A stretch of 48,681 nucleotides of DNA from an uncultured Prevotella sp. GTDB taxonomy: Bacteria; Bacteroidota; Bacteroidia; Bacteroidales; Bacteroidaceae. The notes below the pieces were generated by a model. The model was not told where the DNA came from. It did no database searches and worked only from the letters and a program-made list of their open reading frames with translations. Positions 21,356 to 46,685 of the stretch are shown here, in pieces. The DNA lies in NCBI GenBank assembly GCA_900315955.1, contig ONBC01000031.1, positions 1-48,681 of the forward strand, in the 5' to 3' direction. Numbering within the stretch: position 1 is the stretch's first letter; the number at the start of each line of letters is the position of its first letter. The position numbers and the translations under genes are program-made.

Positions 21356-21407
21356 TTCCTTTTATTATTCTCTATTCTTCATTGTTAATTTCTCACTCCA
21401 CACTAAG

Positions 21408-28475: not shown

Positions 28476-28591
28476 ATAAAACTATTTGGTAATCAGCCTT
28501 ATTAAGGCTGAAAAAAGCAATGATTTCTTCCTTGTTCCGGCCCGTTTGTCAGCAGTCTTGCTGCTTTATGGTCGTCTTTTCACGATTGAGC

Positions 28592-28729
28592 CACGATCTT
28601 TTCACAGCTGTGTCACGATCTTTTCACAGCTGTGTCACGATCTTTTCACAGCTGTGTCACGATCTTTTCACAGCTGTGTCACGATCTTTTCGCAGCTGTG
28701 TCACGATCTTTTCACAGCTGTGTCACGAT
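28592..28729 (+). repeat. Array 1 of the 22-bp tandem repeat
   Basis: Six full units start at 28592, 28614, 28636, 28658, 28680 and 28702, with a partial unit at 28724. The unit is CACGATC + TTTTCA + CAGCTGTGT. Five are identical; the fifth has CG instead of CA before CAGCTG. Each unit contains the 10-bp palindrome CACAGCTGTG. No frame has a stop within the unit, so all three plus-strand frames are open through it. Array 2 at 46375 shares the outer 16 bases. Confidence 0.97.
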
Positions 28730-28833
28730 GGCGTCAGCCTTGGATGGTGTCGCAATTTCAGTTGAATCGTCGTGCGATGACTGCGCAATGACACTGCGAT
28801 TCTTCTTCAATCGCAGGGCGTTGCAGAATAAAA

Positions 28834-30243
28834 TCAGAACAAGGGAGCAACGGTGCAAGCGTTTGGTGCACGGATGCGGATAGTCTTTGCAATGGTTGGC
28901 GCGATGCGATCAACGGTGACAGGGCCTGTCACACGCTCTTGCTTGATACCGTCGCCAAAGAAAATGATAGGGAATGGAACAACACCGGCCCGGCTCATGG
29001 AAGTCTGCTGGGTGTTCTCGTTGAGGAGTCGCCATCCCGGAGCAACGTTGATGATAATGTCGCCGCAGAGGATGGGATTATAACCGGCACGTATCTTCTG
29101 GATGTCGTTGTTGCCCGACTGTATTCGGTCGCTGGTGTAGACATCAGCCACGCCTGCGCTCTGCATGAGAAACTCTTGCGAGCGGGAGAGCAACTCTGAC
29201 ATGGATATACGCTTCTGCTCTATGAGCCGGTGGTCGAGATAAATCTCGTTGCCGTACTCCTGTTCGACGTATCTTCCTGGGCCATAGATTGCTCCAAGAT
29301 ACATGTTGAGCAGGCTTGCCGTGCGGTTGATATAGAAAGTGCCTGTCGGAATGCGATAACGGGAGAGGTCGGTGGGCTTCTCCTCGCTGTAGCCTGTGGA
29401 GGTGACGACAAAGAGCACCTGCTGCATGCTCATCTTTTTCTCTACGGCATTGATGAGCCTGCCAAGGGTATAGTCGAGCTGCTGATAGACGCTTTGCATC
29501 TCCTCCTGCCAGTTGTGTACCGGCTTGCCGTCTGACTTTGTGGCAGAGAGTGTGATGTTCAGAATGTCAGAAACCTCGTCCTGACCTAAGTCGGTTGAGG
29601 ACAAGGCGGCGAGCGCGAGGTCCACGACGTTGTCGTTATCCTGATGGTTCTTTTGCTTCTTATACTGCGCTCCGAAGCCTTCGTTGTAGTTTCGGACCCA
29701 TTTCGGAAGAGACTTCTCATAGTAGGACGACGTTGTCCACAACCGGTCCTTGCCGAGCCAGTAGCATCCGTCGGCGGCATGGCCCGCTAAAAGGATGGCC
29801 GACTTGCTGTCAGCCGCAAACGAATAGACAAGCGCCTTGCCGTTGGAGCTTACTTTGAGTTCATCGCCAATGGTGCTGGTGCGAATTTTGTCGGCCGAGA
29901 AGAATCCTTTGCCGTCATCCACGCTGCCTACAGGCTGGAGCGACTTGCGGTCGAGCCATGTGTCACCGATGATGCCGTTGTAGAAAGGCGTTGTGCCTGT
30001 GGAGATGGAAGCTGTGGCCGACGACTGATCGACCGGGAAGAAAGGGTAGGTGGCTCCCTCATAGACGAGCCCTTCGTCGAGCAGGCGTTTGATGCCGTAG
30101 CGGGAATAAAACTTGCTGAACGCCTCGACATAGTCGGAGCGCAGCTGGTCGATCGTAACGTTGATGACAAGGCGCGGCGCAAGCTCGTAGGCCTGCATCT
30201 CGGCTGTCGTCAGTGCTGCTACTAAAAGCGCTAAATATCGCAT
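28834..30243 (-). CDS. Secreted alkaline-phosphatase-superfamily protein, probably inactive
   Basis: The 469-residue product has a signal peptide (MRYLALLVAALTTAEMQA) and the fold of the PafA/nucleotide pyrophosphatase group: INVTIDQLRSDY at residues 27-38 with the first metal ligand Asp32, then FFPVDQSSATASISTGTTPFYNGIIGD. The Thr nucleophile position before the STG block is not kept (DQSSATAS). The usual D-x3-H of the second site is replaced by TLSATKSDGK (about 231-240), the D-H-G block by VTSTGYSEE (about 280-288), and the last His before P-x-x-F-x-G by Pro in PFPIIFFG. So it probably does not hydrolyse phosphates and may bind a ligand instead. It overlaps the DUF4105 gene by one base. 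Confidence 0.75.
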   Translation of the reverse strand: MRYLALLVAALTTAEMQAYELAPRLVINVTIDQLRSDYVEAFSKFYSRYGIKRLLDEGLVYEGATYPFFPVDQSSATASISTGTTPFYNGIIGDTWLDRKSLQPVGSVDDGKGFFSADKIRTSTIGDELKVSSNGKALVYSFAADSKSAILLAGHAADGCYWLGKDRLWTTSSYYEKSLPKWVRNYNEGFGAQYKKQKNHQDNDNVVDLALAALSSTDLGQDEVSDILNITLSATKSDGKPVHNWQEEMQSVYQQLDYTLGRLINAVEKKMSMQQVLFVVTSTGYSEEKPTDLSRYRIPTGTFYINRTASLLNMYLGAIYGPGRYVEQEYGNEIYLDHRLIEQKRISMSELLSRSQEFLMQSAGVADVYTSDRIQSGNNDIQKIRAGYNPILCGDIIINVAPGWRLLNENTQQTSMSRAGVVPFPIIFFGDGIKQERVTGPVTVDRIAPTIAKTIRIRAPNACTVAPLF

Positions 30244-31478
30244 TATTTATTATTCCCTTCCGCTAATTTATGAGTTGCCGGTTCCCGATAGAGAAGCCGG
30301 TTGATGATGCATCTTACTAACAAAGTGCATGCCAAAAGCCACATTCCTTCCGCATATTTTTGCAAATAGAATCCGCAGACAAGGAAAAAAATGAGGCATA
30401 CACACAGGATGCTCCAATAGAAATGGTACTTATGATGACAGGCGCTACGGCTCACTCCAAAGACGAAAACGATGGATAAAGGATTGAGCAACAGAATCTG
30501 CAGGTTGACTCTTACCGTAGGATGCTGCGAGAAAATCATCAGGAAAAGCACGATGCCGGCGAGCCCGGAGAGCGTAAGCAGCAGGGTGTCGTAGGGCCAG
30601 AAAGTCTTCTTGCGCCGATATTCGAAGAAAGAGCTGACCAAGGTCAGAACAAGGAGCGCCGCAAACAACAGCGAGGGTGTCACTGTCGTCCAGAAGCCTG
30701 ACTCGTCTTCGGCATTATTGGGAACGAGCGTGTTCGTGGTATCGGCCACGAGCTTGTGTGTACGGCCGGAGGGCTCCACGACGACCGCGCGCTCGAAGTC
30801 TTTGCGCAACGAATCGGGAAGGAATTGCTGCTGCTGATAGTCGGTCTTTAAGTCTGAGCCCACGCCGAGGAGCAGGTCGCAACCGAATGCCATCCAGCGG
30901 TGTCCGTGATTCCACTGGTGGATCATCTCACGATAGGACGACTTGACGTTGGGATTGATCTGATATTTTACCTTTCCGTCGAGGTGCCTCACGAGGATGT
31001 CACGTGCCCGTGTCGTGCAGTTGTCATAAAAATAGTTGTAGCGATAGGTCCTCACGCTTGGGTCATAGTTGGCCTGAATGGCCTGCGCGATGGCCAGTTT
31101 TTCCTTGCGCGATAGGTTCAGTCTTTGTTCAATGATGCCGCGCCCTTCCTCGCTGTAATCTGTGAGAAACAGGTCGTAGTCTTCAATACCCATTTGATAA
31201 TCAGTGAGTCCGAAGACGAACCTAAGGATGAAATATTTTTTGGAAAGGTCGAAAAGACCATAGTTGATGGCGTAGTCGGCATGACGCGACCGGTCTTCGA
31301 AACGAATGGCGGTATGCCCGTAGAGGCTCCATATCTCATGCCCCGGAGAGCATGTGAGCAGACTTATGTTGACGCTGTCCATCTGTTCCAAAGGTGTCTC
31401 CGCTCCTGTGGCACCGGCCTTGGAGAGCATGGAAACAAGCAACAGGACAAGGATTGCAGCTTGCTTAAAATATCTCAT
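30243..31478 (-). CDS. DUF4105 (Lnb N-terminal periplasmic domain) membrane protein
   Basis: The 411-residue protein has a signal peptide at residues 1-25 and a periplasmic DUF4105 domain with the two family blocks SLYGHTAIRFED (His55) and YFYDNCTTRARD (Cys154). A conserved Cys and His suggest a thiol-dependent activity, but none is proven. Residues about 260-400 form five or so membrane segments (for example LLFAALLVLTLVSSFF and LCVCLIFFLVCGFYL). The ATG at 31478 is chosen over 31490 because the -7 box at 31495-31502 leaves no leader for the latter. The next gene encodes the phosphatase-like protein and overlaps it by one base. Confidence 0.82.
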   Translation of the reverse strand: MRYFKQAAILVLLLVSMLSKAGATGAETPLEQMDSVNISLLTCSPGHEIWSLYGHTAIRFEDRSRHADYAINYGLFDLSKKYFILRFVFGLTDYQMGIEDYDLFLTDYSEEGRGIIEQRLNLSRKEKLAIAQAIQANYDPSVRTYRYNYFYDNCTTRARDILVRHLDGKVKYQINPNVKSSYREMIHQWNHGHRWMAFGCDLLLGVGSDLKTDYQQQQFLPDSLRKDFERAVVVEPSGRTHKLVADTTNTLVPNNAEDESGFWTTVTPSLLFAALLVLTLVSSFFEYRRKKTFWPYDTLLLTLSGLAGIVLFLMIFSQHPTVRVNLQILLLNPLSIVFVFGVSRSACHHKYHFYWSILCVCLIFFLVCGFYLQKYAEGMWLLACTLLVRCIINRLLYREPATHKLAEGNNK

Positions 31479-31494
31479 ATTAAATTTCACAGTG

Positions 31495-31502
31495 CAAAAA
31501 TA
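31495..31502 (-). promoter_or_regulatory. -7 element for the DUF4105 unit
   Basis: The minus strand reads TATTTTTG here, 16 bases before the chosen start at 31478. The -33 element is not clear. Confidence 0.5.
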
Positions 31503-31559
31503 CCTTATTATTTCGACTTATCGTGCGTTTATCTTATTTTTTTTCAATACTTTAACGCA

Positions 31560-32882
31560 TTGAAGACAAAAATCAATATTCTCGTGAGCAGTATTGCAGC
31601 GGGATTCATGCTTGCTTCCGCTCAGCCGGCGATGGCTCAAAGTGGCACAAACTCGCCTTACAGCCAGTTTGGGCTGGGACAGCTGTCCGATCAGTCATCG
31701 GGGTTCAACCGTGGTATGGATGGAGTGGCGATAGGCTTCCATGACCATAATCAGGTCAACTATCTCAACCCAGCATCCTACTCGTCGCTTGACAGCCTGT
31801 CGTTTATTTTCGATGTCGGACTGTCAGGGCAGATCACCAATTTCAAGGAGAACGGTGTGAAGAAGAACGCTAAGAACGCTGATTTCGAGTATATTGTTGC
31901 CGGTTTCCGGGTGCTTCGTCATTTGGGTCTGAGCTTCGGCTTCCTGCCTTATACGAACGTGGGCTATTCCTATACATCCTCAACGAAGTTGGGCGATGCC
32001 AATGCTACGACCTCCACCGACACATACAATGGGACAGGCGGCTTCCATCAGGTATACCTCGGTTTAGGCTGGTCGCCGTTCAAGGGGTTTGCTGTCGGTG
32101 TCAACGGTGGCTATCTCTATGGCAACTACAGCCGTACGCTGGTAAACAGTTTCAGTAACAGTTATGTAAACAGCATCTCGAAGATAGCCACGGCAGACGT
32201 GGAAAGCTACAAGCTTAACTTCGGCGCTCAGTATACAGCACGCCTTACGAAGAAGGATGAGCTGACGCTCGGTGTCACCTATGAGCTCGGGCATAAGCTC
32301 GGCGGTAATCCGGAACTCAGTGTGATTTCTTCCAACGCTTCTACCGGCGTGGCTGATACGGTAGTTTACAAAGGCAATGGAGCAAAGCTTCAGTTGGAGA
32401 TGCCTACGACGATCGGAGCAGGACTGATGTACAACCATGACAACAAGTTGAAGATCGCCGCTGACTATACGCTCCAGAAATGGGGAAAGGTGGAGGAACC
32501 TGGTTACAGTTCCGACAATGGCGTAATCTCTTACGCTATGATGTCGGGGCAATATAAGGACCGCCATAAAGTGACACTGGGTGCTGAATACTGCCCGGGA
32601 GAACACAACCGACATTTCATCAACCGCGTAAGATATAGGGTGGGCGTGTCTTATGCTACACCTTATTATTATATAAACGGTCAGAACGGTCCCAAGGAGA
32701 TGAGTGCAAGCCTCGGTTTCGGCATCCCTATTATGAACAGCTGGAACAACCGGTCCATCCTGAACATCAGTGGACAGTGGGTGCGTCGCTCGGCAACCAA
32801 CTTTATCACGGAGAACACGTTCCGGATCAATATTGGCTTGACGTTCAACGAGCGCTGGTTTGCTAAATGGAAGGTGCAGTAA
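31560..32882 (+). CDS. Outer-membrane beta-barrel protein, TTG start
   Basis: This 440-residue protein is read from a TTG codon at 31560: that gives a full signal peptide (MKTKINILVSS, hydrophobic core, AQPAMAQ) and no ATG is available in frame before residue 17. The mature protein begins NSPYSQFGLGQLSDQSSGFNRGMDGVA, a block seen in Bacteroidota outer-membrane proteins of this locus, and continues with alternating aromatic and polar strands, ending in FRINIGLTFNERWFAKWKVQ. The predicted fold is a beta barrel. It precedes lptC, so a role in envelope biogenesis is plausible; no family name is assigned. Confidence 0.8.
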   Translation: MKTKINILVSSIAAGFMLASAQPAMAQSGTNSPYSQFGLGQLSDQSSGFNRGMDGVAIGFHDHNQVNYLNPASYSSLDSLSFIFDVGLSGQITNFKENGVKKNAKNADFEYIVAGFRVLRHLGLSFGFLPYTNVGYSYTSSTKLGDANATTSTDTYNGTGGFHQVYLGLGWSPFKGFAVGVNGGYLYGNYSRTLVNSFSNSYVNSISKIATADVESYKLNFGAQYTARLTKKDELTLGVTYELGHKLGGNPELSVISSNASTGVADTVVYKGNGAKLQLEMPTTIGAGLMYNHDNKLKIAADYTLQKWGKVEEPGYSSDNGVISYAMMSGQYKDRHKVTLGAEYCPGEHNRHFINRVRYRVGVSYATPYYYINGQNGPKEMSASLGFGIPIMNSWNNRSILNISGQWVRRSATNFITENTFRINIGLTFNERWFAKWKVQ

Positions 32883-32928
32883 TCGAAGGATGGACAGTAT
32901 CTGTAGAAATAACGATAACAGGAAAAAT

Positions 32929-33594
32929 ATGAGGGTTGGTAGTATGCATATAATAATATGTGTACTATTAACTCTTTTTGCGTCTTCTTTTCTTGCCGCG
33001 TGTCAGGAGGCCGTGGAGCATACAGCGCCGGCTATTCATGACCGCGACTCAGCCTCGGTGATGACAACGCTTGGTGTCAACACGCTTATTTCCGATTCGG
33101 GAGTCATCAAATACCGTATTGTCACGGAGCGGTGGGATGTCAATGAAGTGAGGCATCCCTCCCGCTGGACGTTCGACAAGGGACTTTTCCTGGAGCAGTT
33201 TGATGAGAACTTTCATATCCAGGCTTATATACAGTGCGACACGGCTTATTACTATGACCAACAGCATCTGTGGGAGCTGCGCTCCCGTGTGCGCGTGCTG
33301 ACGAAAGACGGCCTGCGCTTTTCCTCCCAGCAGCTCTACTGGGATGAGCAGAAGCATGAGCTTTACTCTTACACGTTCTCGCGGCTCGTCACGCCGGAAC
33401 GCACGCTTCAGGGCAGCTACTTCCGGTCGGATGAGCGCATGACGCATTATATCGTTACCAACTCCCGCGGCTCGTTCCAGAGCTCCGACTTTGGAGGCTC
33501 TACGGAAGGGTCCGACTCGGCGAAGGCCGCGCAGGACAGCATGCTGATGAATTCGCGTCAGAAGGCTACGCCCGTACGTAATTCGAACGAATAA
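32929..33594 (+). CDS. lptC: LPS export protein LptC (lipoprotein form)
   Basis: LptC links the LptBFG transporter to LptA in LPS transport across the periplasm. The 221-residue product starts MRVGSMHIIICVLLTLFASS and has a lipobox LAAC at about residues 20-23, so it is probably a lipoprotein, unlike E. coli LptC, which keeps a membrane helix. The beta-jellyroll part is visible from TERWDVNEVRHPSRWTF to GLRFSSQQLYWDEQKHELYS, a motif shared by LptC and LptA. The frame is open upstream into the previous gene; the ATG at 32929 fits the signal sequence best. Confidence 0.82.
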   Translation: MRVGSMHIIICVLLTLFASSFLAACQEAVEHTAPAIHDRDSASVMTTLGVNTLISDSGVIKYRIVTERWDVNEVRHPSRWTFDKGLFLEQFDENFHIQAYIQCDTAYYYDQQHLWELRSRVRVLTKDGLRFSSQQLYWDEQKHELYSYTFSRLVTPERTLQGSYFRSDERMTHYIVTNSRGSFQSSDFGGSTEGSDSAKAAQDSMLMNSRQKATPVRNSNE

Positions 33595-33606
33595 ATTATT
33601 GTTATT

Positions 33607-34872
33607 GTGCAAGTTGATATATCAGCAATTATAGAAATTCTTTTCACGATGGTGCTCTCCGCCTTCTTCTCAGGCATGGAGATCGCTTTTGTGTCGAGCA
33701 ACCGTATGCTTGCCTCGATGGACAAAGAGAAGAACGGGCTGTCGCAACGGCTCTGCGACTTCTTTTACCGGCACCCTAACGGCTTTGTCTCGACGATGCT
33801 CGTGGGAAACAATATTGTGCTCGTCATCTACGGTATCCTCTTCGCACGAATCTTCGATTCTACCGTTTTTGCGTCGTTTGCTCCCGGCGTGCGCGTGACG
33901 CTCGATACGCTGCTTTCTACCTTTGTGATGCTTTTCACGGGAGAGTTTTTGCCAAAAGCATTCTTCAAGAGCAGCCCCAACAAGCTCCTGTCGTTCTTCG
34001 CACCCCTCGCGGCTCTGTTCTACATCGTGCTGTGGCCTGTGAGCAAGATCTCTACCTTCCTCTCGCGGATCATGCTGCGTCTGGTTGGAATAAGGATCGA
34101 TCAAAAAGAGTCGGAAAAGAGTTTTACGAAAGTGGATCTCGACTACCTTCTCCAGTCATCGATCGACAATACGCCAAAAGGCGATGAGGTCGACGACGAG
34201 GTAAAGATTTTCCAGAACGCGCTCGACTTCCCCGACACCAAAGTGCGCGACTGTATGATCCCGCGTACGGAGATCAATGCCGTGGATATCGATTGCACGA
34301 TCGATGAGCTCAAACAGAAGTTCATAGAGAGTGGCAATTCGAAGATCGTAGTCTTCAAGGATGACATCGATCATATCGTAGGTTATATTCACAGCTCGGA
34401 GATGTTCCGTAAGCCGGAGCACTGGCAGAACTCCGTGCGTAAGATGCCGTTTGTCCCTGAGACAATGGCGGCTCAGAAGCTCATGCGTATCTTCCTGCAA
34501 CAGAAGAAGAGCCTCGGCGTTGTCGTGGATGAGTTTGGCGGAACCGCAGGTCTCGTCTCCCTTGAGGATATCGTGGAGGAAATCTTCGGCGATATCCAGG
34601 ATGAACACGACAGTGACAACTTGATCGCCAAGCAGGTTGACGAACATGATTATATCTTCTCGGGTCGTGTAGAGATTGATGATGCCAACGACCGTTTTGG
34701 TCTCGATCTCCCTGAGAGTGACGATTATAAGACCATCAGTGGTCTCATTCTCCACGAGTACCAGAGTTTTCCAAAGCTCAACGAGATCATCAACATCGGG
34801 CGCTATTCGTTCAAGATCCTGAAGTCTACGGCGACAAAAATAGAATTGGTGCGCCTGACGGTCTCGCATTGA
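33607..34872 (+). CDS. CNNM/DUF21-CBS-CorC membrane protein (GldE/HlyC-like)
   Basis: This 421-residue inner-membrane protein has an N-terminal DUF21 domain (residues 1 to about 185, several membrane segments, with SAFFSGMEIAFVSSNR), a CBS pair (about 205-335, starting RDCMIPRTEINAVD and including GVVVDEFGGTAGLVSLEDI) and a CorC_HlyC C-terminal domain. Such proteins are linked to divalent-metal transport; in Bacteroidota the GldE name is also used for this type. It starts with GTG at 33607, 12 bases after lptC. Confidence 0.88.
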   Translation: MQVDISAIIEILFTMVLSAFFSGMEIAFVSSNRMLASMDKEKNGLSQRLCDFFYRHPNGFVSTMLVGNNIVLVIYGILFARIFDSTVFASFAPGVRVTLDTLLSTFVMLFTGEFLPKAFFKSSPNKLLSFFAPLAALFYIVLWPVSKISTFLSRIMLRLVGIRIDQKESEKSFTKVDLDYLLQSSIDNTPKGDEVDDEVKIFQNALDFPDTKVRDCMIPRTEINAVDIDCTIDELKQKFIESGNSKIVVFKDDIDHIVGYIHSSEMFRKPEHWQNSVRKMPFVPETMAAQKLMRIFLQQKKSLGVVVDEFGGTAGLVSLEDIVEEIFGDIQDEHDSDNLIAKQVDEHDYIFSGRVEIDDANDRFGLDLPESDDYKTISGLILHEYQSFPKLNEIINIGRYSFKILKSTATKIELVRLTVSH

Positions 34873-34917
34873 TGCTTTCCAAGCTCTTCACTTGCATGAA
34901 AACACCTCCGGAAAGCA
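34873..34917 (+). terminator. Weak hairpin after the CNNM/CBS gene
   Basis: TGCTTTCC at 34873-34880 pairs with GGAAAGCA at 34910-34917 around a 29-base loop, followed by a short AT-rich stretch. The loop is long, so termination is uncertain. Confidence 0.35.
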
Positions 34918-34958
34918 AATTTCTTATAAAAAGATGTGGAGGATTGTTGAATAATTAG

Positions 34959-34966
34959 TAATTTTG
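34959..34966 (+). promoter_or_regulatory. -7 element of the ppiD promoter
   Basis: TAATTTTG fits TAnnTTTG, 54 bases before the ATG. The -33 element is weak (TGTG at 34935-34938 at a 20-base spacing). Confidence 0.55.
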
Positions 34967-35020
34967 CACATTAAAGGATTATCTTCGAAAATAATAAAAT
35001 AAAATAAACGTAAAAACAAA

Positions 35021-37162
35021 ATGGCAGCTTTAGGAAAAATCAGAAGCAGAGGCGTGACACTGATCGTCATCATCGGTATCGGCCTCTTTGCCTTCATTGC
35101 TGAGGAGGCATTCCGTTCCTGTGAGTCGCAGCGTAACAACGAGCGACAGCAGATCGGTGAAATCTTAGGAGAAAAAATCAGTTACGAGGACTTTGCCAAG
35201 CTCGTAGACGAAGCTCAGGACGCTATGAAGGTCATGGGGCAGGACAACCTGACCGACGACCAGCTCAATCAGCTTCGCGATCAAGTGTGGCAGAGCCTTG
35301 TACAGTATAAGCTCATCGAGAAAGAGTGTGATAAACTTGGTCTCACTGTTACCGATGAGGAGATGCAGAATGTGCTCAACGAAGGCACGAACCAGATGCT
35401 TCTCTCCACACCTTTCGTGAACCGTCAGACAGGACGTTTCGATGCCAATCAGCTCAAGCAGTTCCTTGCTCAGTACCAACAGGTCAAAAACACCAATCCC
35501 CAGGCTGCCGAGCAGTACGACGCTATCTACAAGTATTGGACCTATATTGAGAAGACGCTGCGTCAGCAGCTCCTCATGCAGAAATATAACGGTCTGCTTT
35601 CTCACTGCTTCCTTTCCAACCCTGTAGAGGCTAAGATGGCTTACAAGGAGTCGAGTGAGGAGAGCAATATCCAGTTGGCTTCTTATCCTTACAGCAGCAT
35701 CCAGGATTCGAAGGTCAAGATCAGTGACGCTGACCTCAAGGCCAAGTACGACGAGATGAAGCCACGCTTCGAGCAGTATGTTGAAAGCCGTGACATCAAG
35801 TATGTCGACGTGCAGATCACCGCTTCTCGTGCTGACCGCGCCGCGCTGCTCAAGGAGTTTAATGGCTATGCAAAGAATCTCGCGGCTGCTGCCGATCCTA
35901 CGGATGTAGTGCGTAAGAGTACATCTACAGTGCCTTATCTTGGCATTCCTGTGGGTAAGGAGGCTTTCCCCACGGACATTGCTGCAAAGCTCGATTCTAT
36001 GAGCGTTGGGCAGACGCTCGGCCCTGTGGAGTCGAAGAGTGACAACACCCTCAATATCGTGAAGCTTGTCGCTAAGCAGGAGCTCCCTGATTCAGTTCAG
36101 TTCCGTGCTATCCAGATCGGTGGTACGACACCTCAAGAGGCTCATACCCGCGCCGACTCTGTCTATAAGGCTCTCTCCGCCGGTGCCGACTTCGCTACAC
36201 TGGCTAAGAAATATGGACAGGAGGGCAGCGAGCAGTGGCTCACGACTCGTCAGTATGAGTACACGAACACGATGGACAACGATACTAAGAATTACCTCAA
36301 TACGTTGCTGACAATGGCTCCGAAGGAGACCAGGAACATCGCCACGACACAGGGTAACATCATCGTTGAGGTCCTCGACCGTAAGAACATGGTAGAGAAA
36401 TATACGGCTGCTGTCATCAAGAAGACCATCGACTACTCTAAGGACACGCGCAGCGCTATCTACAACAAGTTCAGCACGTTTGTCAGTGCTAACACGACAC
36501 CTGACGCAATCTATAAGAATGCCGCCAAGAGCGGTTATCAGGTGCAGGAGGCTAAGGACGTGACAACTTCTCAGCACTACCTCGCCGGCATTCATTCTAC
36601 GCGTGACGCTATGAAGTGGCTCTTCGACGCTAAGGTAGGTGATGTTTCTCCGCTCTACGAATGTGGTAACAATGGTGATAACCTTTTGGTTGTCGTCTGC
36701 ACAGGTGTCCATCCTATTGGCTACCGTGGGCTTGATGATCCGCAGGTGAAGGAGATGGTTAAAGCAGAGGTGCTCCGCGACAAGAAAGCTGAAATGCTGA
36801 TGGCTAAGGCCAAGGGTGCCACAAGTCTTGCTGCCGCTAAGGCCAAAGGTGCTGTGGTTACACCTGTCAACCAGGTTACGTTCTCTGCTCCTGTTTTCGT
36901 CAGCACGACGGGTGCCAGCGAGCCTGCGCTCAGTGGTGCGGTTTATGTGGCAAAGGTCGGCAAGTTCTTCTCTCGTCCTGTGAAGGGACAGGGTGGCGTT
37001 TACCAGTTCCAGGTCATCAATCGCAAGAAGAACGCTATGAAGTTTAATGAGCAGCAGACAGAGGCTACCCTTCGGCAGAAAGCTATGCAGGCTGCCGGCA
37101 ACTATATGAATGAACTTTACATTAAAGCTAAGGTTGTAGACAACAGATATCTGTTCTTCTAA
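35021..37162 (+). CDS. PpiD/SurA-like peptidyl-prolyl isomerase
   Basis: The 713-residue protein has one N-terminal membrane helix (LIVIIGIGLFAFIAEEAF, about residues 13-31) and a large periplasmic part, as in PpiD, a folding factor near the Sec exit. A SurA-N-like region spans about residues 40-200, and a parvulin domain lies at about 348-455 (HTRADSVYKALSAGADFATLAKKYG is split here as ADSVYKALSAG and ADFATLAKKYGQ). The parvulin domain lacks the usual His-Ile-Leu start (RAIQIGG), so it may have weak isomerase activity. C-terminal repeats of Ala and Lys (AKAKGATSLAAAKAKGA) are present. It has its own promoter. Confidence 0.88.
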   Translation: MAALGKIRSRGVTLIVIIGIGLFAFIAEEAFRSCESQRNNERQQIGEILGEKISYEDFAKLVDEAQDAMKVMGQDNLTDDQLNQLRDQVWQSLVQYKLIEKECDKLGLTVTDEEMQNVLNEGTNQMLLSTPFVNRQTGRFDANQLKQFLAQYQQVKNTNPQAAEQYDAIYKYWTYIEKTLRQQLLMQKYNGLLSHCFLSNPVEAKMAYKESSEESNIQLASYPYSSIQDSKVKISDADLKAKYDEMKPRFEQYVESRDIKYVDVQITASRADRAALLKEFNGYAKNLAAAADPTDVVRKSTSTVPYLGIPVGKEAFPTDIAAKLDSMSVGQTLGPVESKSDNTLNIVKLVAKQELPDSVQFRAIQIGGTTPQEAHTRADSVYKALSAGADFATLAKKYGQEGSEQWLTTRQYEYTNTMDNDTKNYLNTLLTMAPKETRNIATTQGNIIVEVLDRKNMVEKYTAAVIKKTIDYSKDTRSAIYNKFSTFVSANTTPDAIYKNAAKSGYQVQEAKDVTTSQHYLAGIHSTRDAMKWLFDAKVGDVSPLYECGNNGDNLLVVVCTGVHPIGYRGLDDPQVKEMVKAEVLRDKKAEMLMAKAKGATSLAAAKAKGAVVTPVNQVTFSAPVFVSTTGASEPALSGAVYVAKVGKFFSRPVKGQGGVYQFQVINRKKNAMKFNEQQTEATLRQKAMQAAGNYMNELYIKAKVVDNRYLFF

Positions 37163-37224
37163 GCCATGCTTTCTTTTCAACGCGCATTCATTGCGAGCGT
37201 TGAATAGTTACAATATAAATAAAA

Positions 37225-37250
37225 AGGCGGTCCAACGGACTGCCTTTTTT
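37225..37250 (+). terminator. Rho-independent terminator of ppiD
   Basis: A 9-bp stem (37225-37233 with 37237-37245, one G-T wobble), a 3-base loop and a T run at 37245-37250. Confidence 0.9.
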
Positions 37251-37454
37251 CGTTCTGTCTTGCCCTTCAACTTCGTTTTCTGCTTTTTAAGCCTCCCTTG
37301 TGTTCGCGTTCATACCATTTCAGTTGTCTTGTATAAAGTGTTTTTCGAGCTTAAGTACAGACTTATGCACCTTAGTCTTAGAAATGGTCAGAACGGATGG
37401 CCTGTAAAGTATCTTGTAAAAAAATACAATTTTTTGTCAGATATTAAAATTGGG

Positions 37455-37486
37455 TTTGTAGGTTACGATAAAGAATATTATCTTTG
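37455..37486 (+). promoter_or_regulatory. Promoter of the GH29 fucosidase
   Basis: TTTG at 37455-37458, a 20-base spacer and TATCTTTG at 37479-37486 fully match the Bacteroidota consensus. Confidence 0.82.
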
Positions 37487-37535
37487 CAAAAGAGTTTTAA
37501 TCATAATGTTTTCAGACAAGTTAAAGCTTAGCTAT

Positions 37536-38837: not shown

Positions 38838-38900
38838 TGTCCAAGCGTCGTTGAAGTGAATATTGTTTTGTTAAGATAACGTTTGTTGGGAAGAAATGTG

Positions 38901-38908
38901 TAACTTTG
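38901..38908 (+). promoter_or_regulatory. -7 element of the dxs operon promoter
   Basis: TAACTTTG lies 20 bases before the dxs ATG; the -33 element is not clear. Confidence 0.55.
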
Positions 38909-38928
38909 CAAAAATATTATTCCCATAG

Positions 38929-40842
38929 ATGGAAGAAAAGCAATTTTCTTTGCTGAGCCTCATTGATTTTCCTGCGGATCTTCGTCGTCTGCCGGAAGAG
39001 CAATTACCTGAAGTGTGCAAGGAACTTCGACAAGATATCATAGAAGAGGTGTCAGTAAATCCTGGTCACCTTGCCTCGAGTTTAGGTGTGGTGGAGCTGA
39101 CAGTGGCGCTCCACTATGTCTTCAATACTCCCAACGACCGCATCGTCTGGGATGTAGGTCATCAGGCTTATGGTCATAAGATTCTCACGGGGCGCCGGGA
39201 CCAGTTCTGTACGAACAGGCAGTTCGGCGGCATCCGCCCGTTCCCCACACCGTTGGAGAGCGAGTATGACACGTTTACCTGCGGACATGCGTCGAACAGC
39301 ATCTCTGCGGCCCTTGGCATGGCGGTGGCGGCGAAGAAGACGGGACATGACGACCGGCACGTCGTGGCGGTCATCGGGGATGGCGCCATGAGTGGCGGCC
39401 TGGCTTTTGAGGGACTGAACAATGTGTCGTCGACGCCGAACGACATGCTCATCATCCTCAATGACAACGATATGTCAATAGACCGTGCCGTGGGAGGCAT
39501 GGAACAGTATCTCATTAATCTTGATGTCAACGCGACCTACAACAAGTTGCGCTTCAGGGCTTCGCAATGGCTTCACGGGAAAGGTTATCTCAATGATGAC
39601 CGCCGCAAGGGCATTATCCGGCTGAATAATGCCTTGAAGAGTGCGCTGACCCACCAGCAGAACATTTTCGAGGGTTTGAACATCCGTTACTTCGGACCGT
39701 TTGAAGGTCACGATGTAGAGAACCTTGTGCATGTGCTTCGACAGATCAAGGATATGAAGGGTCCGAAGCTTCTCCATCTGCATACCATCAAAGGCAAAGG
39801 CTATGCGCCTGCTGAGAAGAACGCCACGGTGTGGCATGCTCCGGGCAAATTCGATGTCGCCACGGGAGAACGTATCTTAGAGAGTAACGAACAGCAGCCG
39901 CTGAAGTTCCAGGAAGTCTTCGGAAAGACACTCTTGGAATTGGCGAAGCAGAATCCGCGTATCGTCGGGGTGACACCCGCCATGCCTACAGGATGCTCTA
40001 TGAACATCATGATGAAGGAGATGCCGGACAGAGTATTCGATGTCGGAATCGCCGAGGGGCATGCCGTGACGTTCTCAGGCGGTATGGCGAAAGACGGCTT
40101 GCAGCCGTTCTGTAACATCTACAGTGCCTTCGCTCAGCGCGCTTATGACAATATCATCCATGATCTCGCCATATTAAATCTCCCGGTGGTGCTTTGTCTT
40201 GACAGGGCGGGGCTCGTCGGTCAGGATGGCCCAACCCATCACGGAGCCTTCGACATGGCGGCTTTGCGCCCCGTCCCTAATCTCTCGATAGCCTCTCCGA
40301 TGGACGAGCATGAACTGCGCAGATTGATGTACACCGCACAGTTGCCCGGAAAGGGAACGTTTGTCATCCGATACCCGCGTGGACGCGGTGTGTTGCCTGC
40401 TGAAAAGTGGAGCTGTCCTTTTGAGGAAATAGAAGTAGGCACGGGAAGAAAGCTACACGACGGCAAAGAGTTGGCGGTAATCACCATCGGGCCTATTGGC
40501 AACGATGTGGAGACCGTCATCAAGCAGATAGAAACAGACAACAGCAATAGCGTAGGGAAGATTGCTCATTACGACCTTCGTTTTCTTAAGCCTCTCGACG
40601 GGCATCTGCTCACGGAGGTTGGAGAACGTTTTAAGAAGGTCATCACTGTGGAAGATGGCGTGCGTAACGGCGGCATGGGCTCCGCTGTCCTCGAATGGAT
40701 GGCTGACAAAGGCTACACGCCGATGGTTGTGCGTCTCGGTTTGCCCGATAAGTTCGTGGAGCACGGCACTGTGGAGGAAGAGCGTCGGGTCTGCGGCATT
40801 GACAATGAGAGCTTGCGAAAAGACATAGAAGCATTATTATGA
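38929..40842 (+). CDS. dxs: 1-deoxy-D-xylulose-5-phosphate synthase
   Basis: Dxs condenses pyruvate and glyceraldehyde 3-phosphate with thiamine diphosphate, the first step of the MEP isoprenoid pathway. The 637-residue protein has [10 protein letters not shown] with the catalytic His47, [16 protein letters not shown], and the thiamine-binding [16 protein letters not shown] at 150-165. The second half has [15 protein letters not shown] with the conserved Glu, and [18 protein letters not shown]. It is first in an operon with trkA, trkH and manA, and overlaps trkA by 4 bases (ATGA). Confidence 0.97.
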
Positions 40843-42233
40843 AAATTATCATTACAGGCGCCTATGCCATCGGAACGCATCTCGCCCGGTTGCTATCCCG
40901 TAACCAGGAGGAGATTACGATTATTGACGATGATCAGAGCCGTCTTGACAAGATTGGAGCCGACTATGACCTGCTGACACTCTGTGGGTCGCCTTCGAGC
41001 CTGAAGACACTGCGTGAGGCGGGTACAGCCAATGCTGACCTTTTCATTGCTGTTTCACCCGATGAAAACGAAAATATAAACAGTTGTATCCTGGCCCATG
41101 CCCTGCACGCCAAGAAGACGGTGGCAAAGGTCAACGATGCCGAATACGTCGAGGAGGATGTCCGACAGTTTTACAAGGATCTTGGTGTCGATGTGCTCAT
41201 CTACCCAGAGATTCTCGCTGCGAAGGAGATCAACAATGGCCTGAAGATGTCGTGGGTAAGGCAGCGATGGGATGTCCACGGCGGGGCCCTCGTGATGCTT
41301 GCCATCAAACTGCGCGACAACTGTAAGATTCTCAACCAGCCGCTGAAGGATCTCTGTGGACCTGACGACCCATATCATGTCGTCGCTATCAAACGTGGAC
41401 GCGATACGATAATCCCTGGCGGTAACGATGCGTTGCACTGTTTCGACCTCGCTTATTTCATGACGACGAAGCAGTATATTCCTTACATCCGTGAGATTAC
41501 GGGCAAGACGGCTTATGTCGATGTGCGTAACGTGTTGTTTATGGGCGGCGGCATGACGGCTGTGCGTGCGCTGCAGAGCATGCCGGAATATATGCACGCG
41601 AAGATCATAGAGCTGGATCCTGACAGGTGTGAGGAACTGAACCAACTCGTGGAGGACAAGACGCTCATCATTCAGGGTGATGCGCGCGACACCTCGCTCC
41701 TTGAGGATGAAGGCATCAAGAATACACAGGCTTTCGTTGCCCTGACGGGGAACGCGGAAACAAATATTCTGGCTTGTCTTACGGCCAAGCGCCTCGGTGT
41801 CAGGAAGACGGTGGCCGACGTGGAGAATCTCGACTACGTGTCGATGGCAGAGAGTCTTGATATCGGCACGATCATTAATAAGAAGGCGATCGCTGCCAGC
41901 CGCATCTATCAGGTCATGCTTGATGCCGATGTGCTGAACGTTACGTTCCTCATGTCGGCGAACGCCGATGTAGCGGAGTTCGTGGCCAAGGAAGACTCGA
42001 AGGTGACAAAAATGGCAGTTCGTAACCTCCGACTGCCGCAGGATGTGACCATAGGCGGACTGGTACGGGGTGACAAAGGGATGCTCGTCAATGGTAACAC
42101 GCTTATAGAGGCGGGAGATCATGTAGTCGTTTTCTGCCATGGCGTGAACATGAAGACGTTGGAGAAGTATTTCAATTCTCCGAGAAAGATAGAGGCTATC
42201 GGGCGCGACTTGCTTAACAGATTGTCGCTATGA
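40839..42233 (+). CDS. trkA: Trk potassium uptake regulatory subunit TrkA
   Basis: TrkA is the cytoplasmic nucleotide-binding ring that gates TrkH. The 464-residue protein has two RCK units: the first starts [20 protein letters not shown], where the usual G-x-G-x-x-G is changed (G-A-Y-A-I-G), so NAD binding may differ; the second starts [19 protein letters not shown] at about residue 230. Each unit ends in a TrkA-C domain. The second one has the C-terminal [23 protein letters not shown]. It overlaps dxs and trkH by 4 bases each, so the three should be coupled. Confidence 0.95.
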
Positions 42234-43693
42234 TTAACTATATAATCATATTACGGGTTTTAGGCAGCCTGCTCTACGGCGAGGCCGTGACGATGCTTGT
42301 CTGTATGGCTGTGGCGCTTTGTTATCAGGAGGATGACATTCTGCTCTTTGCTTCGTCGGCGATCATCACGGTCTTTGCCGGTGCAGTCTTGAAGTTTTGG
42401 GGACGGAAGGCAGAAAATCGGCTCTCCCGACGTGATGCTTACCTGCTCGTGTCCTTAGTGTGGATTATCTATTCGCTTTTTGCCACGTTGCCGTTCTTGC
42501 TTGGCGGCTACCTGCATAGTTTTACGGATGCTTATTTCGAAGCTATGTCGGGTTTTACGACAACAGGCGCGACCATCATCGACGATGTAGAGGTGCTGCC
42601 TCATGGCATCCTCACATGGCGCTCACTGACGCAGTGGGTGGGCGGCTTGGGCATTGTCTTCACCGTCATAGCCCTCATCCCTTCCGTGGCGGGAGGGAGC
42701 GGGAGTATCCGGGTCTTTGGAGCCGAGTCGACGGGTCCTATCAAGACAAAGTTGCAGCCCAAGCTCTCCACGAGCGTGCGTTTTATCTGGCTTGTGTATC
42801 TCGCCCTAAGCGTGGCTTGCTTCTTGAGTTATAAGGTCTTCGGCATGGACTGGTTCGATGCCGCCAACTTTACCATGTCATCGGTGGCAACGGGCGGTTT
42901 CTCGACATATAACGACTCCACGGAATATTTCCATTCTCCGTCGTTGGAGTATGTGACGACGTTCTTCTGTTTTCTCTCCGGCACCAACTTCACCTTGTTG
43001 TATTTGACGATCTTCAAACGCAAATGGAAGAGCATGTTCAAGGACTCTGAGTTTCGCTTCTATATCATTATCGTGTTGCTCGCAACGGTGTTTATCATGT
43101 GTGAGCTCATCTTCCGCAACCATTATGCCCTCGAGCATGCTTTCCGCTCGGCTATCTTCCAAGTGGTGTCGTTCATCACTACAACGGGACTGTTCAACGA
43201 CAATGCGGGGGTATGGCCGCATGTGACGTGGGTCGTCCTTGCCGTGTGTATGTTCTTTGGTGCCTGCTCGGGGTCGACAACGGGCGGACTGAAATGTGTG
43301 CGATGTGTGATGATTCTCAAGGTATTGAAGAATGAGCTGATGCAACGTCTCCACCCCAACGCGGTGTTGCCGCTGAAGATCAGTGGCACGAATATTCCTG
43401 ACAAGCAGCGAGTGTCGCTTTTAGCGTTTGTCACGGCCTATCTCCTGCTGTTCTTCATTTTTGCTTTTGTCATTATTGCGTCGGGTGTAGACAACACCAA
43501 CGCCATCACGATATGTCTGAGTTGTCTGAGTAATGTAGGTCCGACCCTCGGTACAGAGATAGGTCCGACGATGTCGTGGTCGCAGCTGCCTGCTTTCATC
43601 AAGTGGTTCTGCTCATTCATGATGCTTGTCGGCCGTCTTGAGATCTTCACCGTCATCGTGGTGTTGACACCGGAGTTTTGGAGGAAGAACTAA
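42230..43693 (+). CDS. trkH: Trk potassium uptake channel TrkH
   Basis: TrkH is the potassium-conducting membrane subunit that TrkA controls. The 487-residue protein has about ten hydrophobic segments and four pore-loop motifs, each with the selectivity glycine: SGFTTTGATI (about residues 107-116), MSSVATGGFS, FITTTGLF and LSNVGPTLG. CSGSTTGGLKCVR lies before the last pair of helices. It starts inside the last codons of trkA (ATGA overlap). Confidence 0.96.
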   Translation: MINYIIILRVLGSLLYGEAVTMLVCMAVALCYQEDDILLFASSAIITVFAGAVLKFWGRKAENRLSRRDAYLLVSLVWIIYSLFATLPFLLGGYLHSFTDAYFEAMSGFTTTGATIIDDVEVLPHGILTWRSLTQWVGGLGIVFTVIALIPSVAGGSGSIRVFGAESTGPIKTKLQPKLSTSVRFIWLVYLALSVACFLSYKVFGMDWFDAANFTMSSVATGGFSTYNDSTEYFHSPSLEYVTTFFCFLSGTNFTLLYLTIFKRKWKSMFKDSEFRFYIIIVLLATVFIMCELIFRNHYALEHAFRSAIFQVVSFITTTGLFNDNAGVWPHVTWVVLAVCMFFGACSGSTTGGLKCVRCVMILKVLKNELMQRLHPNAVLPLKISGTNIPDKQRVSLLAFVTAYLLLFFIFAFVIIASGVDNTNAITICLSCLSNVGPTLGTEIGPTMSWSQLPAFIKWFCSFMMLVGRLEIFTVIVVLTPEFWRKN

Positions 43694-43705
43694 ACTTATT
43701 ATTAT

Positions 43706-44668
43706 ATGCAAGCATTACGTTTTAATCCGCTGCTCAAGCAGACGCTGTGGGGCGGCAACAAGATTATCCCGTTCAAGCACCTTCATTCCGATTTGGAGAA
43801 CGTTGGAGAGAGTTGGGAAATCTCCGGAGTACCAGGGAATGAGACCGTTGTCAAAGGCGGTGAGTTTGATGGCAAGAAGCTCAGTGAGGTCGTTGGGATT
43901 CTCAAGGAGCAGCTCGTTGGTGAGGCCAATTACAAGAAATACGGCAACGAATTCCCGTTGCTCATCAAGTTTATCGATGCGCAGCGGCCGCTGTCGATCC
44001 AAGTCCATCCCACGGACGAGATCGCGCATAAGCTTGGCTATGAGCGGGGAAAGACAGAGATGTGGTATGTCATGAAGTCGGACGAGGATGCCAACATGCT
44101 CGTAGGGCTCCGCAAGCAAATCACGCCGGAGCAGTATAAGCAGATGGTAGAAGACGGAACGATTGTCGATGCCCTCGGTCATTACGATGTGAAAGAAGAC
44201 GATTGTTTCTTCCTTCCTTCGGGTCGCATTCATGCCATTGGCAAGGGGTGCTTCCTCTGTGAGATACAGCAGACCTCTGACGTGACGTTCCGCATCTACG
44301 ACTTCAAACGTAAGGATAAAAACGGCAACTACCGGCAGCTGCATACGAAAGAAGCAGCCATGAGCATCAACTATCAAGTGCTGCCCGATTACCGTCAGGC
44401 GTATGTACCGGAGAAGAACCGTGGAGTGTCTCTCGTACAGTGCCCGTTCTTCAGCACGTTTATTTATGATATCGACAAGCCTCTGACGCTCGATGTGGAG
44501 GCCCTCAACTCGTTCTTCATCACCATTGTTGTCGATGGTGAGGGTACGTTCACGGATGATGAAGGCAACGTTTACGAGGTAGCTGCCGGTGACTCTCTCC
44601 TTTTCCCAGCTACCACAAGGGAAATCAAGGCTGAGGGACGAATGAAGTTCCTTGAGACATACGCCTAA
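43706..44668 (+). CDS. manA: Mannose-6-phosphate isomerase (type I, short form)
   Basis: This 320-residue zinc enzyme interconverts mannose 6-phosphate and fructose 6-phosphate, which supplies GDP-mannose and GDP-fucose for glycans. The cupin zinc ligands are visible in LSIQVHPTDEIAH and TEMWYVM, with FLPSGRIHAIGKGCFLCEIQQ, which carries the last His and Glu, in the middle of the protein. It is shorter than E. coli ManA (391) and matches the compact bacterial form. It follows trkH by 12 bases. Confidence 0.92.
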   Translation: MQALRFNPLLKQTLWGGNKIIPFKHLHSDLENVGESWEISGVPGNETVVKGGEFDGKKLSEVVGILKEQLVGEANYKKYGNEFPLLIKFIDAQRPLSIQVHPTDEIAHKLGYERGKTEMWYVMKSDEDANMLVGLRKQITPEQYKQMVEDGTIVDALGHYDVKEDDCFFLPSGRIHAIGKGCFLCEIQQTSDVTFRIYDFKRKDKNGNYRQLHTKEAAMSINYQVLPDYRQAYVPEKNRGVSLVQCPFFSTFIYDIDKPLTLDVEALNSFFITIVVDGEGTFTDDEGNVYEVAAGDSLLFPATTREIKAEGRMKFLETYA

Positions 44669-44729
44669 TCATTGCGTGATTCATCTTTCGATGGTGTAGC
44701 GTGCCATTGCGCCTTTCCTGAACACAGCA

Positions 44730-44771
44730 AGTCCCCGCTGTTAACCTTTATTGGGTTTAACGGCGGGGACT
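44730..44771 (+). terminator. Long hairpin after manA
   Basis: A 15-bp stem (44730-44744 with 44757-44771, one T-G wobble), extended by two or three pairs after a bulged T, follows the manA stop by 61 bases. It lacks a T run, so it may act as an mRNA-stability or REP-type element rather than a true terminator. Confidence 0.5.
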
Positions 44772-44921
44772 ACCTATATACGAAAATTGTTCGTATCCTT
44801 AACGTCTCAACACCTTGCACCCGTTGTGGTGTTGAGGCAGAGAGCGATGTCATTGAGGCTGTTTCACGCCTATTGTCCGTCGATTTTGATCCTCTCATTC
44901 GTCATTGTCAAGGTAAAGTTG

Positions 44922-44929
44922 TACCTTTG
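44922..44929 (+). promoter_or_regulatory. -7 element of the GH53 promoter
   Basis: TACCTTTG lies 31 bases before the ATG at 44961; ATTC at 44897-44900 is a possible -33 element at a 21-base spacing. This shows that the longer open frame from 44751 is not the true start. Confidence 0.6.
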
Positions 44930-44960
44930 GCGAGAAAACAAGAATCAAAAGGGAAACAGT

Positions 44961-45980
44961 ATGTTAAGAACAATTCTATTATCTGTAGTGCTTACGGTAA
45001 CGACCTTCGTCTGCGGTCAAGACAAGCCAGACTTCTGGCTCGGTGCTGACATCAGTGGAACGACTGAGTTGGAAGCACGTGGAGAAAGACTCTATAACTG
45101 TAAAGGTGAGATTCGTGAAAACACGGCTCTCATGCATGAGCTTGGTCTCAATGCCATTCGCCTGCGCGTGTGGGTCAATCCTCGTGGCGGATTCTCCGGG
45201 GCCCAAGATGTTCTCGAGATGGCGAAGCGTGCCAAATATTATGGAATGGCGATCATGATCGACTTCCATTACAGTGACTGGTGGGCAGACCCTGGGAAGC
45301 AAACGATTCCGGCCCAATGGCAGTATCTCAGCTATGGAGAGATGAAGACAAAATTGTGGGAGCATACGCACGACGTACTTCAACTGCTGAAGGATAACCA
45401 CATCGATGTGAGATGGGTACAGGTGGGCAACGAGACTACGCACGGCTTTCTCTGGCCAATGGGAAAGGCAGAAGACAATATGGAACAGTATGCCGGGCTG
45501 ACGGAGACGGGTTACCAAGCTGTAAAATCTGTCTATCCTGATGCACAGGTCATCATCCATCTCGACGGTGGCTGTGACCAGAAACGTTATGACTTCATCT
45601 TTGATGGTTTGAAGAAATATGGGGCTCACTGGGACATGATCGGCCTGAGTGTCTATCCTTATTGGGATGTTCAGGCGAAACTTGAGCATGACTGGAAAGG
45701 AACCGTCAAGGACTTTGCTGCTAACATCCGTCACCTTTATGAAAAGTACGGCTCTGAATGTATGGTAGTAGAGACTGGAGCAGAAGCGAAGAAGGCGATG
45801 GAAGGAAAGAAGATTATGGAAGCAGTGATCAATGCGGCCCTAAACGACTGTGACGGACACTGCCATGGTGTGTTCTACTGGGCACCGGAGTTGGAAGATC
45901 AATATCCTCTCGGGGCTTTCGTCAATCATCGGCCGACAGTCATCATGGATGCGTTTAAAGCCACGGATTTGCATAAATAG
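44961..45980 (+). CDS. Arabinogalactan endo-beta-1,4-galactanase, GH53
   Basis: This 339-residue secreted enzyme should cut beta-1,4-galactan side chains of plant pectin. The signal peptide is residues 1-19 (MLRTILLSVVLTVTTFVCG). The GH53 barrel has FWLGADISGTTELEARG, GLNAIRLRVWVNP, the acid/base Glu158 in VGNETTHGFLWP and the nucleophile Glu271 in MVVETG; LSVYPYW and FYWAPE are also family marks. The length fits single-domain GH53 enzymes. It stands alone, with its own promoter and no SusC/SusD pair nearby. Confidence 0.93.
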   Translation: MLRTILLSVVLTVTTFVCGQDKPDFWLGADISGTTELEARGERLYNCKGEIRENTALMHELGLNAIRLRVWVNPRGGFSGAQDVLEMAKRAKYYGMAIMIDFHYSDWWADPGKQTIPAQWQYLSYGEMKTKLWEHTHDVLQLLKDNHIDVRWVQVGNETTHGFLWPMGKAEDNMEQYAGLTETGYQAVKSVYPDAQVIIHLDGGCDQKRYDFIFDGLKKYGAHWDMIGLSVYPYWDVQAKLEHDWKGTVKDFAANIRHLYEKYGSECMVVETGAEAKKAMEGKKIMEAVINAALNDCDGHCHGVFYWAPELEDQYPLGAFVNHRPTVIMDAFKATDLHK

Positions 45981-46143
45981 CTATCGATAGGTGTTAAGAG
46001 TTAGGAGCGATCCGCAACCACATCGTCACACCCAATCGTGGTTAACATATTGCAATGGCGGACGGCCACGAGGGCAGCATCCTGCAATAAGACCATACTG
46101 CCCACGAAAGACACATAGGATACGAAGATCTGATTCTTCGGCT

Positions 46144-46359
46144 CTATGGCTCATGGTGAATATCTATGGGCTCTTGGTGGGAATATTGCGACTCGGCGAT
46201 AAAATATGAAGCAGAGGCTCTGGAGACAAATGTCTCTTGCAAAGTCCGTTCCACTATTTTCCGTTCAAAGCGAGCGATAGCAATCATAAGCCGTGAAAAG
46301 TCGCTGTCAAAAACAATGCGTGATTGTAACTGCTCAGCGTGATTTCTGAGTTCTGCCAT
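46144..46359 (-). CDS. Doubtful small ORF (71 aa)
   Basis: The frame reads MAELRNHAEQLQSRIVF, then a mixed polar and hydrophobic stretch ending SHQEPIDIHHEP. No family is recognised, and no ribosome binding site or promoter is seen. A GTG start inside array 2 (46377) would lengthen it by 6 codons. It is listed because it is the only sizeable frame in a 720-base gap, but it may be chance. Confidence 0.2.
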   Translation of the reverse strand: MAELRNHAEQLQSRIVFDSDFSRLMIAIARFERKIVERTLQETFVSRASASYFIAESQYSHQEPIDIHHEP

Positions 46360-46374
46360 CGCGTCGCGCTGTGT

Positions 46375-46534
46375 CACGATCCCGCCCCAGCTGTGTCACG
46401 ATCCTGCCTCAGCTGTGTCACGATCCCGCCTCAGCTGTGTCACGATCCCGCCTCAGCTGTGTCACGATCCTGCCTCAGCTGTGTCACGATCTCGCCCCAT
46501 ACGTGTCACGATCTCGTCCCATACGTGTCACGAT
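46375..46534 (+). repeat. Array 2 of the 22-bp tandem repeat
   Basis: Seven full units start at 46375, 46397, 46419, 46441, 46463, 46485 and 46507, with a partial unit at 46529. Units 1-5 are CACGATC + CCGCCY or CTGCCT + CAGCTGTGT; units 6 and 7 end in CATACGTGT. Period and outer 16 bases equal those of array 1 (28592), while the central 6 bases differ (C-rich here, TTTTCA there). It has the same orientation as array 1, and all three plus frames are open. Confidence 0.96.
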
Positions 46535-46685
46535 CGGCATCATACCTCGCAGTTTTGTTGTTGCGCTTGTTTCGCGATACCGTTTGTTTCGCATTATTGT
46601 TATCGCTGAATAGTTACGCGTGATTCGTGGAATACAAAATATAGTTAAATAAGGAGAATCTTGATTCTTGTAGAATTATTATTCG

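Follow-up and report, generated by a model that had tools for sequence, protein, structure and literature searches.

An interspersed 22-bp minisatellite family in an uncultured Prevotella, with one array at the core of an IS66-type miniature inverted-repeat transposable element

The closest published system to the repeats described here is BrickBuilt, a minisatellite of Porphyromonas gingivalis that is borne on a miniature inverted-repeat transposable element (MITE). According to Klein 2015 (PMC4596501), BrickBuilt has a 23-nt unit and IS5-type ends (GAGACC...), no element is bisected by a full-length transposable element, and among 19 copies both arms are present in 11, the leader only in 3, the tail only in 2 and neither in 3. 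The subject of this analysis is a pair of 22-bp tandem arrays, array 1 and array 2, in a 48,681-nt stretch from an uncultured Prevotella sp. (contig ONBC01000031.1 of assembly GCA_900315955.1), the whole of which is called the window; it is contig C43 of a fragmented assembly of 3.2 Mb in 149 contigs (genome G000). Our preferred reading, to which we give a probability of roughly 0.7, is that each array is a copy from a minisatellite family interspersed between genes, and that the arrays are mobile-element DNA rather than a regulatory site.

BOX elements of Streptococcus pneumoniae have two arms and variable tandem core units and are thought to be moved in trans; their modular build is similar, while their sequence, unit length and host differ. 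Repetitive extragenic palindromic (REP) sequences and the bacterial interspersed mosaic elements (BIMEs) are targets of the IS3-family elements IS1397 and ISKpn1 (PMC1525189).

The Prevotella family resembles BrickBuilt as an intergenic minisatellite that lies in a MITE (array 2), with unlike leader and tail and with arms on some copies only, and also in having no transposase remnant inside, in being restricted to a species and in belonging to the Bacteroidales. It differs in its 22-bp unit of other sequence, its IS66-type ends (GTAACT), its approximately 60 copies and the IS3-type ends that adjoin its arrays. With REP/BIME it shares the role of interspersed intergenic repeats as landing sites of IS3-family elements; unlike REP/BIME, the target units in Prevotella vary from one genome to another and have mainly their 22-bp period in common, and the hairpin energy of the main unit family here is no better than that of shuffled units. 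The literature searched, from whose coverage subscription journals were mostly absent, yielded no description of arrays of this kind in Prevotella.

A 22-bp family dispersed between genes

Arrays 1 and 2 are real and homologous. As delimited with Tandem Repeats Finder (TRF), they are:

28592..28729, forward strand: array 1, six 22-bp units CACGATCTTTTCACAGCTGTGT and a partial unit CACGAT
46368..46535, forward strand: array 2, seven units and a partial unit, with C-rich centres

Array 1 has a period of 22, 6.3 copies and 98% matches, with a single substitution (TTTTCG), and array 2 a period of 22, 7.6 copies and 92% matches, which confirms the common period and orientation that had been reported in a preliminary description of the window. 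The identity of the outer bases claimed there held only in part: the unit flank is shared, but CAGCTGTGT occurs in only five of the seven units of array 2, the final two having CATACGTGT instead. The claim that the middle of the array 2 units is uniform was refuted, as the middles read, in order, CCGCCC, CTGCCT, CCGCCT twice, CTGCCT, TCGCCC and TCGTCC. A structured RNA was rejected at the arrays (no Rfam match at gathering thresholds), as were a tRNA, by a tRNA search, and a CRISPR array, the 22-bp units being contiguous without spacers.

The search for further copies of the unit pattern that the preliminary description had proposed yielded 18 exact units on 5 contigs, and a looser core led to approximately 60 arrays. 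The two-unit core GTGTCACGAT-N12-GTGTCACGAT, allowing up to 3 mismatches, had 298 matches (146 + 152) in the 3.2-Mb genome, where the reversed pattern used as a control had none, and a sequence-model search gave 176 matches, with at least 47 contigs named among the matches listed. Copies thus abound outside the window, and they point to a mobile minisatellite rather than to a control site. Fifty-nine of the approximately 60 arrays were studied: the two in the window and 57 kept from 59 fetched regions, two regions (L068 and L075) having been dropped for want of an array by the rule of the script.

The arrays were almost all intergenic, in DNA that is 82% coding by the home-made gene caller that also supplied the gene calls: 57 of the 59 overlapped no gene and the other two touched a gene by at most 7 bp. 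Unit number differed from site to site. Where both flanking genes could be used (41 arrays), the neighbours were co-directional at 25, divergent at 9 and convergent at 7. The array strand agreed with the co-directional pairs in 12 cases and was opposite in 13, which indicates no gene-control geometry and no strand preference.

Two halves can be told apart in the unit. Over 258 interior units of 58 arrays the A half, GTGTCACGATC, was near-invariant, a biased figure because the A half served to find the arrays; in the B half of the same units T13, G14, C16 and C18 were conserved at 90-100% and positions 20 and 21 at only 41-51%. The unit matched itself at offset 11 with a score of 0.461, compared to 0.11-0.31 at other offsets, and so looks like two related 11-bp halves. 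This half-period match was significant against shuffled units in only 8 of 52 arrays here, and the two-half structure is therefore weak; the count in the sister species G347 was 8 of 45.

Identity at unit positions 11-22 was 0.861 within arrays versus 0.717 between them (56 arrays), a value reached by none of 1000 permutations, which bears out the earlier suggestion of a common family with local homogenisation. Slippage or unequal recombination may be what keeps the units within an array alike. The left array edges kept their phase (phases 6-10 in 31 of 57 and 20-22 in 13 of 57), as expected of copied blocks. The right edge fell at phases 6-10 in 36 of 57 arrays (18 at phase 10), a result that is partly built in, since extension begins at phase 10 of the last core, and the left edge was relied on.

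Some arrays departed from the common form. The array at L047 (contig C16, 820-1005) has a 44-bp higher-order unit with four different 11-bp halves, and three period-22 arrays of this genome have units without the GTGTCACGAT core (L072, 8353-8442; L048, 3647-3720; L084, 295-350). At the contig ends of C74 (L079) and C38 (L055) another repeated flank, GAGAGCCG...TTCTGCTTGA, stands beside the arrays and is possibly a further inserted element.

The IS66-type MITE and the segment upstream of secA

A non-autonomous IS66-type MITE, the insertion of which duplicated 8 bp of its target, has array 2 at its centre. The parts of the element are:

46326..46617, no strand: IS66-type MITE of 292 bp built around array 2, recognised by inverted ends GTAACTNNTCAGCG and the target duplication
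46326..46339, forward strand: left terminal inverted repeat GTAACTGCTCAGCG
46604..46617, reverse strand: right terminal inverted repeat GTAACTATTCAGCG
46318..46325, no strand: target site duplication GCGTGATT, left copy
46618..46625, no strand: target site duplication GCGTGATT, right copy

The duplication is perfect over its 8 bp on both sides. No open reading frame of at least 100 amino acids was found within 46326-46617, and hence there is no transposase gene inside the MITE. Comparable MITEs in the genome have other target duplications, matching at 8 of 8 positions at L059 and L072 and at 7 of 8 at L056. The site of the L072 copy (contig C63) is empty in G347, where the gap measures -6 bp compared to 293 bp here.

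Matches to IS66 transposases were present in 19 of 80 genus genomes, and 29 loci were scanned for ends. Intact IS66-family elements of congeners, found at L165, L166, L172 and L173, share with the window MITE both the GTAACTNNTCAGCG-type ends and a perfect duplication of 8 bp; where the MITE has its 22-bp tandem array, they have a transposase gene with PF03050. The element at L166 is 1610 bp long and has GTAACTATTCAGCG at both ends with no mismatch at the specified bases, and the other three have one mismatch per end. An IS66-family transposase would probably mobilise such MITEs in trans, as the same type of end in the intact congener elements suggests. The sole trace of an IS66 transposase in this genome is a fragment at L120 (contig C100, near 1381-1761), beside an end GTAACTATCCAGCG.

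Array 1 lies in a segment of a different kind, which is listed here with the genes next to both arrays:

28529..28837, no strand: segment holding array 1, its limits being alignment ends good to about 10 bp; the ends carry CCTTGTTC and GAACAAGG
24922..28437, reverse strand: secA, with SecA domains, downstream neighbour of array 1
28834..30243, reverse strand: type I phosphodiesterase gene (PF01663), upstream neighbour of array 1
44751..45980, forward strand: glycosyl hydrolase family 53 gene (PF07745), left neighbour of array 2
46702..47070, forward strand: low-molecular-weight phosphatase-like gene (PF01451), right neighbour of array 2

In the gap between secA and the phosphodiesterase gene, 309 bp here correspond to 7 bp in G347, and approximately 306 bp to 5 bp in a second sister species, G251, so that the segment is absent from both; identity is 91% over the query in G347 and 90% in G251. 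An IS66-type MITE was ruled out for array 1, as the best end scores were 15 and 15 on the 25-base motif, which is the background level. The segment bounded by CCTTGTTC and GAACAAGG is possibly another element.

Several results weigh against the preferred reading. Only one fragment of an IS66 transposase gene, and no intact gene, was found in this assembly, and no clear target duplication surrounds the array 1 segment. Most arrays have no IS66 ends: over 60 arrays (the 59 studied here and one of G038), scores of 11 or less were obtained for the left end at 23, for the right end at 11 and for both at 7, one of these being that of G038, and 28 of 2000 random stretches scored as well for the left end. 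The end pair occurred at none of the 46 period-22 arrays of G347, so the MITE is not a general source of arrays. Finally, the uneven conservation of the B half, high at positions 13, 14, 16 and 18 and low at 20 and 21, is not predicted by plain neutral drift. If the arrays are nonetheless mobile-element DNA, those without IS66 ends, array 1 included, may lie in other inserted segments or may be older copies whose ends are gone, and the arrays would persist because they are located between genes.

One further tandem array is present in the window, at 21400-21517, with a period of 14, 8.4 copies and the unit ACATTAAACACTTA.

Distribution and period in other genomes

At up to one mismatch, the unit pattern was found in 4 of 398 genus genomes: 216 matches in this one, 3 in G038 and 1 each in G131 and G251. 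At two mismatches in 100 relatives, a single array was gained in each of G023 and G050, possibly by chance. The family ranges more widely than the pattern shows. A cluster of 10 arrays in G347 matched the consensus of this genome at up to 16 of 22 positions, compared to at most 14 in 400 shuffled pairs, which indicates that the family exists there in diverged form. The preliminary description had considered a function in controlling genes or organising the chromosome possible, but this is not supported: array strand is split 12 to 13, 394 of 398 genus genomes lack the pattern (in a search that would overlook diverged units), and two sister species have an empty site in place of array 1.

The exact three-unit pattern, searched in the genomes of 84,980 species, returned two records: one of them fits G038, and the other (L118, CADBYN010000001.1) bears the title Elusimicrobium. 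Transfer to Elusimicrobium was rejected, as the flanks of L118 match two contigs of this genome, C63 at 98% and C111 at 97% identity; the record was taken as DNA of the same species in a mislabelled or chimeric contig. Its contig end joins the two separate loci across an array, by misassembly or by recombination between arrays, and because its array bridges two loci the record was not used as evidence of unit-number variation among strains. An origin from viruses was rejected as well: the one exact match in viral_contigs had no array in the DNA around it.

The period of 22 reaches beyond this family. The survey rests mainly on one species, G347, sampled as 80 stretches of 1,455,217 bases in all that lean on contig starts and are possibly repeat-rich. 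Of 100 tandem arrays with at least 2.8 copies in this sample, 46 had a period of exactly 22, compared to 2 with 21, none with 23, 1 with 20, 1 with 24 and 20 with 7; a 200-base block shuffle yielded none. Exact 11-mer recurrence peaked at spacings of 22, 44 and 66. Forty-four of the 46 period-22 arrays were intergenic, versus 43 of the 54 arrays of other periods. Their sequences were mostly other than those of the family described here, and single linkage of 45 of them gave clusters of 26, 10, 3, 2 and 2 and two singles.

The remaining samples were small. Period-22 arrays made up 1 of 3 arrays in G131 (40 kb), 1 of 4 in G016, 1 of 1 in G024 and 0 of 3 in G385; G290 had no tandem array of any period, and 60 kb of contig C5 of G251 had no period-22 array (one array, of period 12). 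Among loci fetched for other features, a biased sample, the period was 22 in 4 of 4 arrays of G038 and in 6 of 13 of other congeners.

Five orthologous gaps could be compared between this genome and G347. Two are empty in G347 (those of array 1 and L072). Another two are occupied there by period-22 arrays with a different sequence (L102 versus L264; L083 versus L228, which holds two), and that of L056 differs by a larger insertion.

These comparisons bear on two other explanations. Ordinary neutral minisatellites that arose independently at each site by replication slippage would vary in unit number among sites and would be homogenised within arrays, as is usual for minisatellites and as was observed; they would not explain the same unit sequence at approximately 60 sites, the MITE ends and target duplications, or the excess of period 22 over 21 and 23 in G347. 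The unit shared by unrelated sites largely refutes an independent origin by slippage for this family, which we regard as highly improbable. The arrays could alternatively be multi-site binding platforms for a host protein (a regulator, a partition protein or a nucleoid protein), the half-sites being spaced by approximately one turn of the helix. The self-match at offset 11, the conserved skeleton of the B half and the exact period across many unit sequences of G347 agree with such platforms, but the half-period match is significant in few arrays of either genome, the unit pattern is missing from nearly all genus genomes, sister species lack the array at the secA site, and the arrays have no preferred orientation. 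Moreover, one site can hold different units in different species (L102 versus L264), and one sequence-specific protein therefore cannot serve all arrays. We consider binding platforms unlikely.

IS3-family and RAYT-type elements near the arrays

This genome has 10 copies of a 24-bp end, E: 7 adjoin array units, 1 is in a MITE arm and 2 are elsewhere. A second end, F, adjoins array units at both places inspected. The two were rejected as separate repeats, as they are the ends of a single element of approximately 1.4 kb at L141 (contig C88 of G128, reverse strand), which has an IS3-type pair of open reading frames, one with an rve and one with a helix-turn-helix domain. The ends of this element match the array-associated ends in this genome. 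A plain target duplication was not found at L141.

Relatives of E were present in 22 of 150 genus genomes, and 20 E-end loci were chosen from 15 of the 22. At 10 of the 20, TRF reported an array, no more than 50 bp outside E, that had at least 2.2 copies and a period of 22 or 44. Self-match was analysed at 17, L133, L138 and L151 having been excluded for a weak end match. Over the 110 bp outside E it averaged 0.492 at lag 22 and 0.446 at lag 44, compared to 0.21-0.31 at other lags from 8 to 49 and to 0.282 at lag 22 in the control stretch past the other side of the E boundary; lag 22 ranked best at 14 of the 17 loci. At L141, self-match on the F side was highest at lag 21, and E was not found in the G347 sample. 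The array units beside E differ between loci, so the preference of the IS3-family element seems to concern period-22 DNA whatever the unit. The element may use the arrays as a harmless landing site.

Known IS3-family elements that target REP sequences (PMC1525189) would also fit tandem palindromes of the REP/BIME kind, in which the 22-bp unit is a hairpin spread by a Y1 transposase of the REP-associated tyrosine transposase (RAYT) type. Hairpin energy beat that of shuffled units (p<0.05) in 11 of 45 arrays of G347 and in 6 of 15 author-picked congener units, compared to 1 of 16 and 2 of 13 arrays of other periods, and the only Y1 gene found in this genome is near an array (contig C39). In this genome, however, all 5 unit families tested fell short of p<0.05, the main one having p 0.72; the Y1 gene is flanked by palindromes other than array units, and only 4 of 17 Y1 loci had a period-22 array (at least 2.8 copies). 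A link of RAYT to the arrays is not clearly supported, and an origin as REP/BIME-like palindromes appears slightly less probable even than binding platforms. Dyad symmetry reached p<0.05 in 9 of 45 arrays of G347 and in 18 of 52 here, the latter not being independent. The Y1 gene itself (L056, 3961-4399) lies within a gap of approximately 1.6 kb that is absent in G347, between palindromes such as CAGCCTCGGAGAGGCTG.

Array 2 shows directly that a MITE can carry a minisatellite, and the family provides an IS66-borne counterpart of BrickBuilt in another genus of the Bacteroidales. The arrays also matter for the assembly of Prevotella genomes, as several contigs here terminate at an array or close to one. 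The IS3-family element beside period-22 arrays of differing sequence suggests a transposase with architectural target choice. More tentatively, and as a conjecture that we hold to be somewhat less probable than its negation, the arrays of Prevotella may form a class that is set by an exact 22-bp period, with units that turn over between sister species even in the same gap; the IS3-family transposase would recognise the periodic architecture, and some process of the cell would measure 22 bp in making, keeping or invading the arrays. If the 22-bp period is general, it would offer a handle on what sets the repeat length of bacterial minisatellites while their sequence is free to change.

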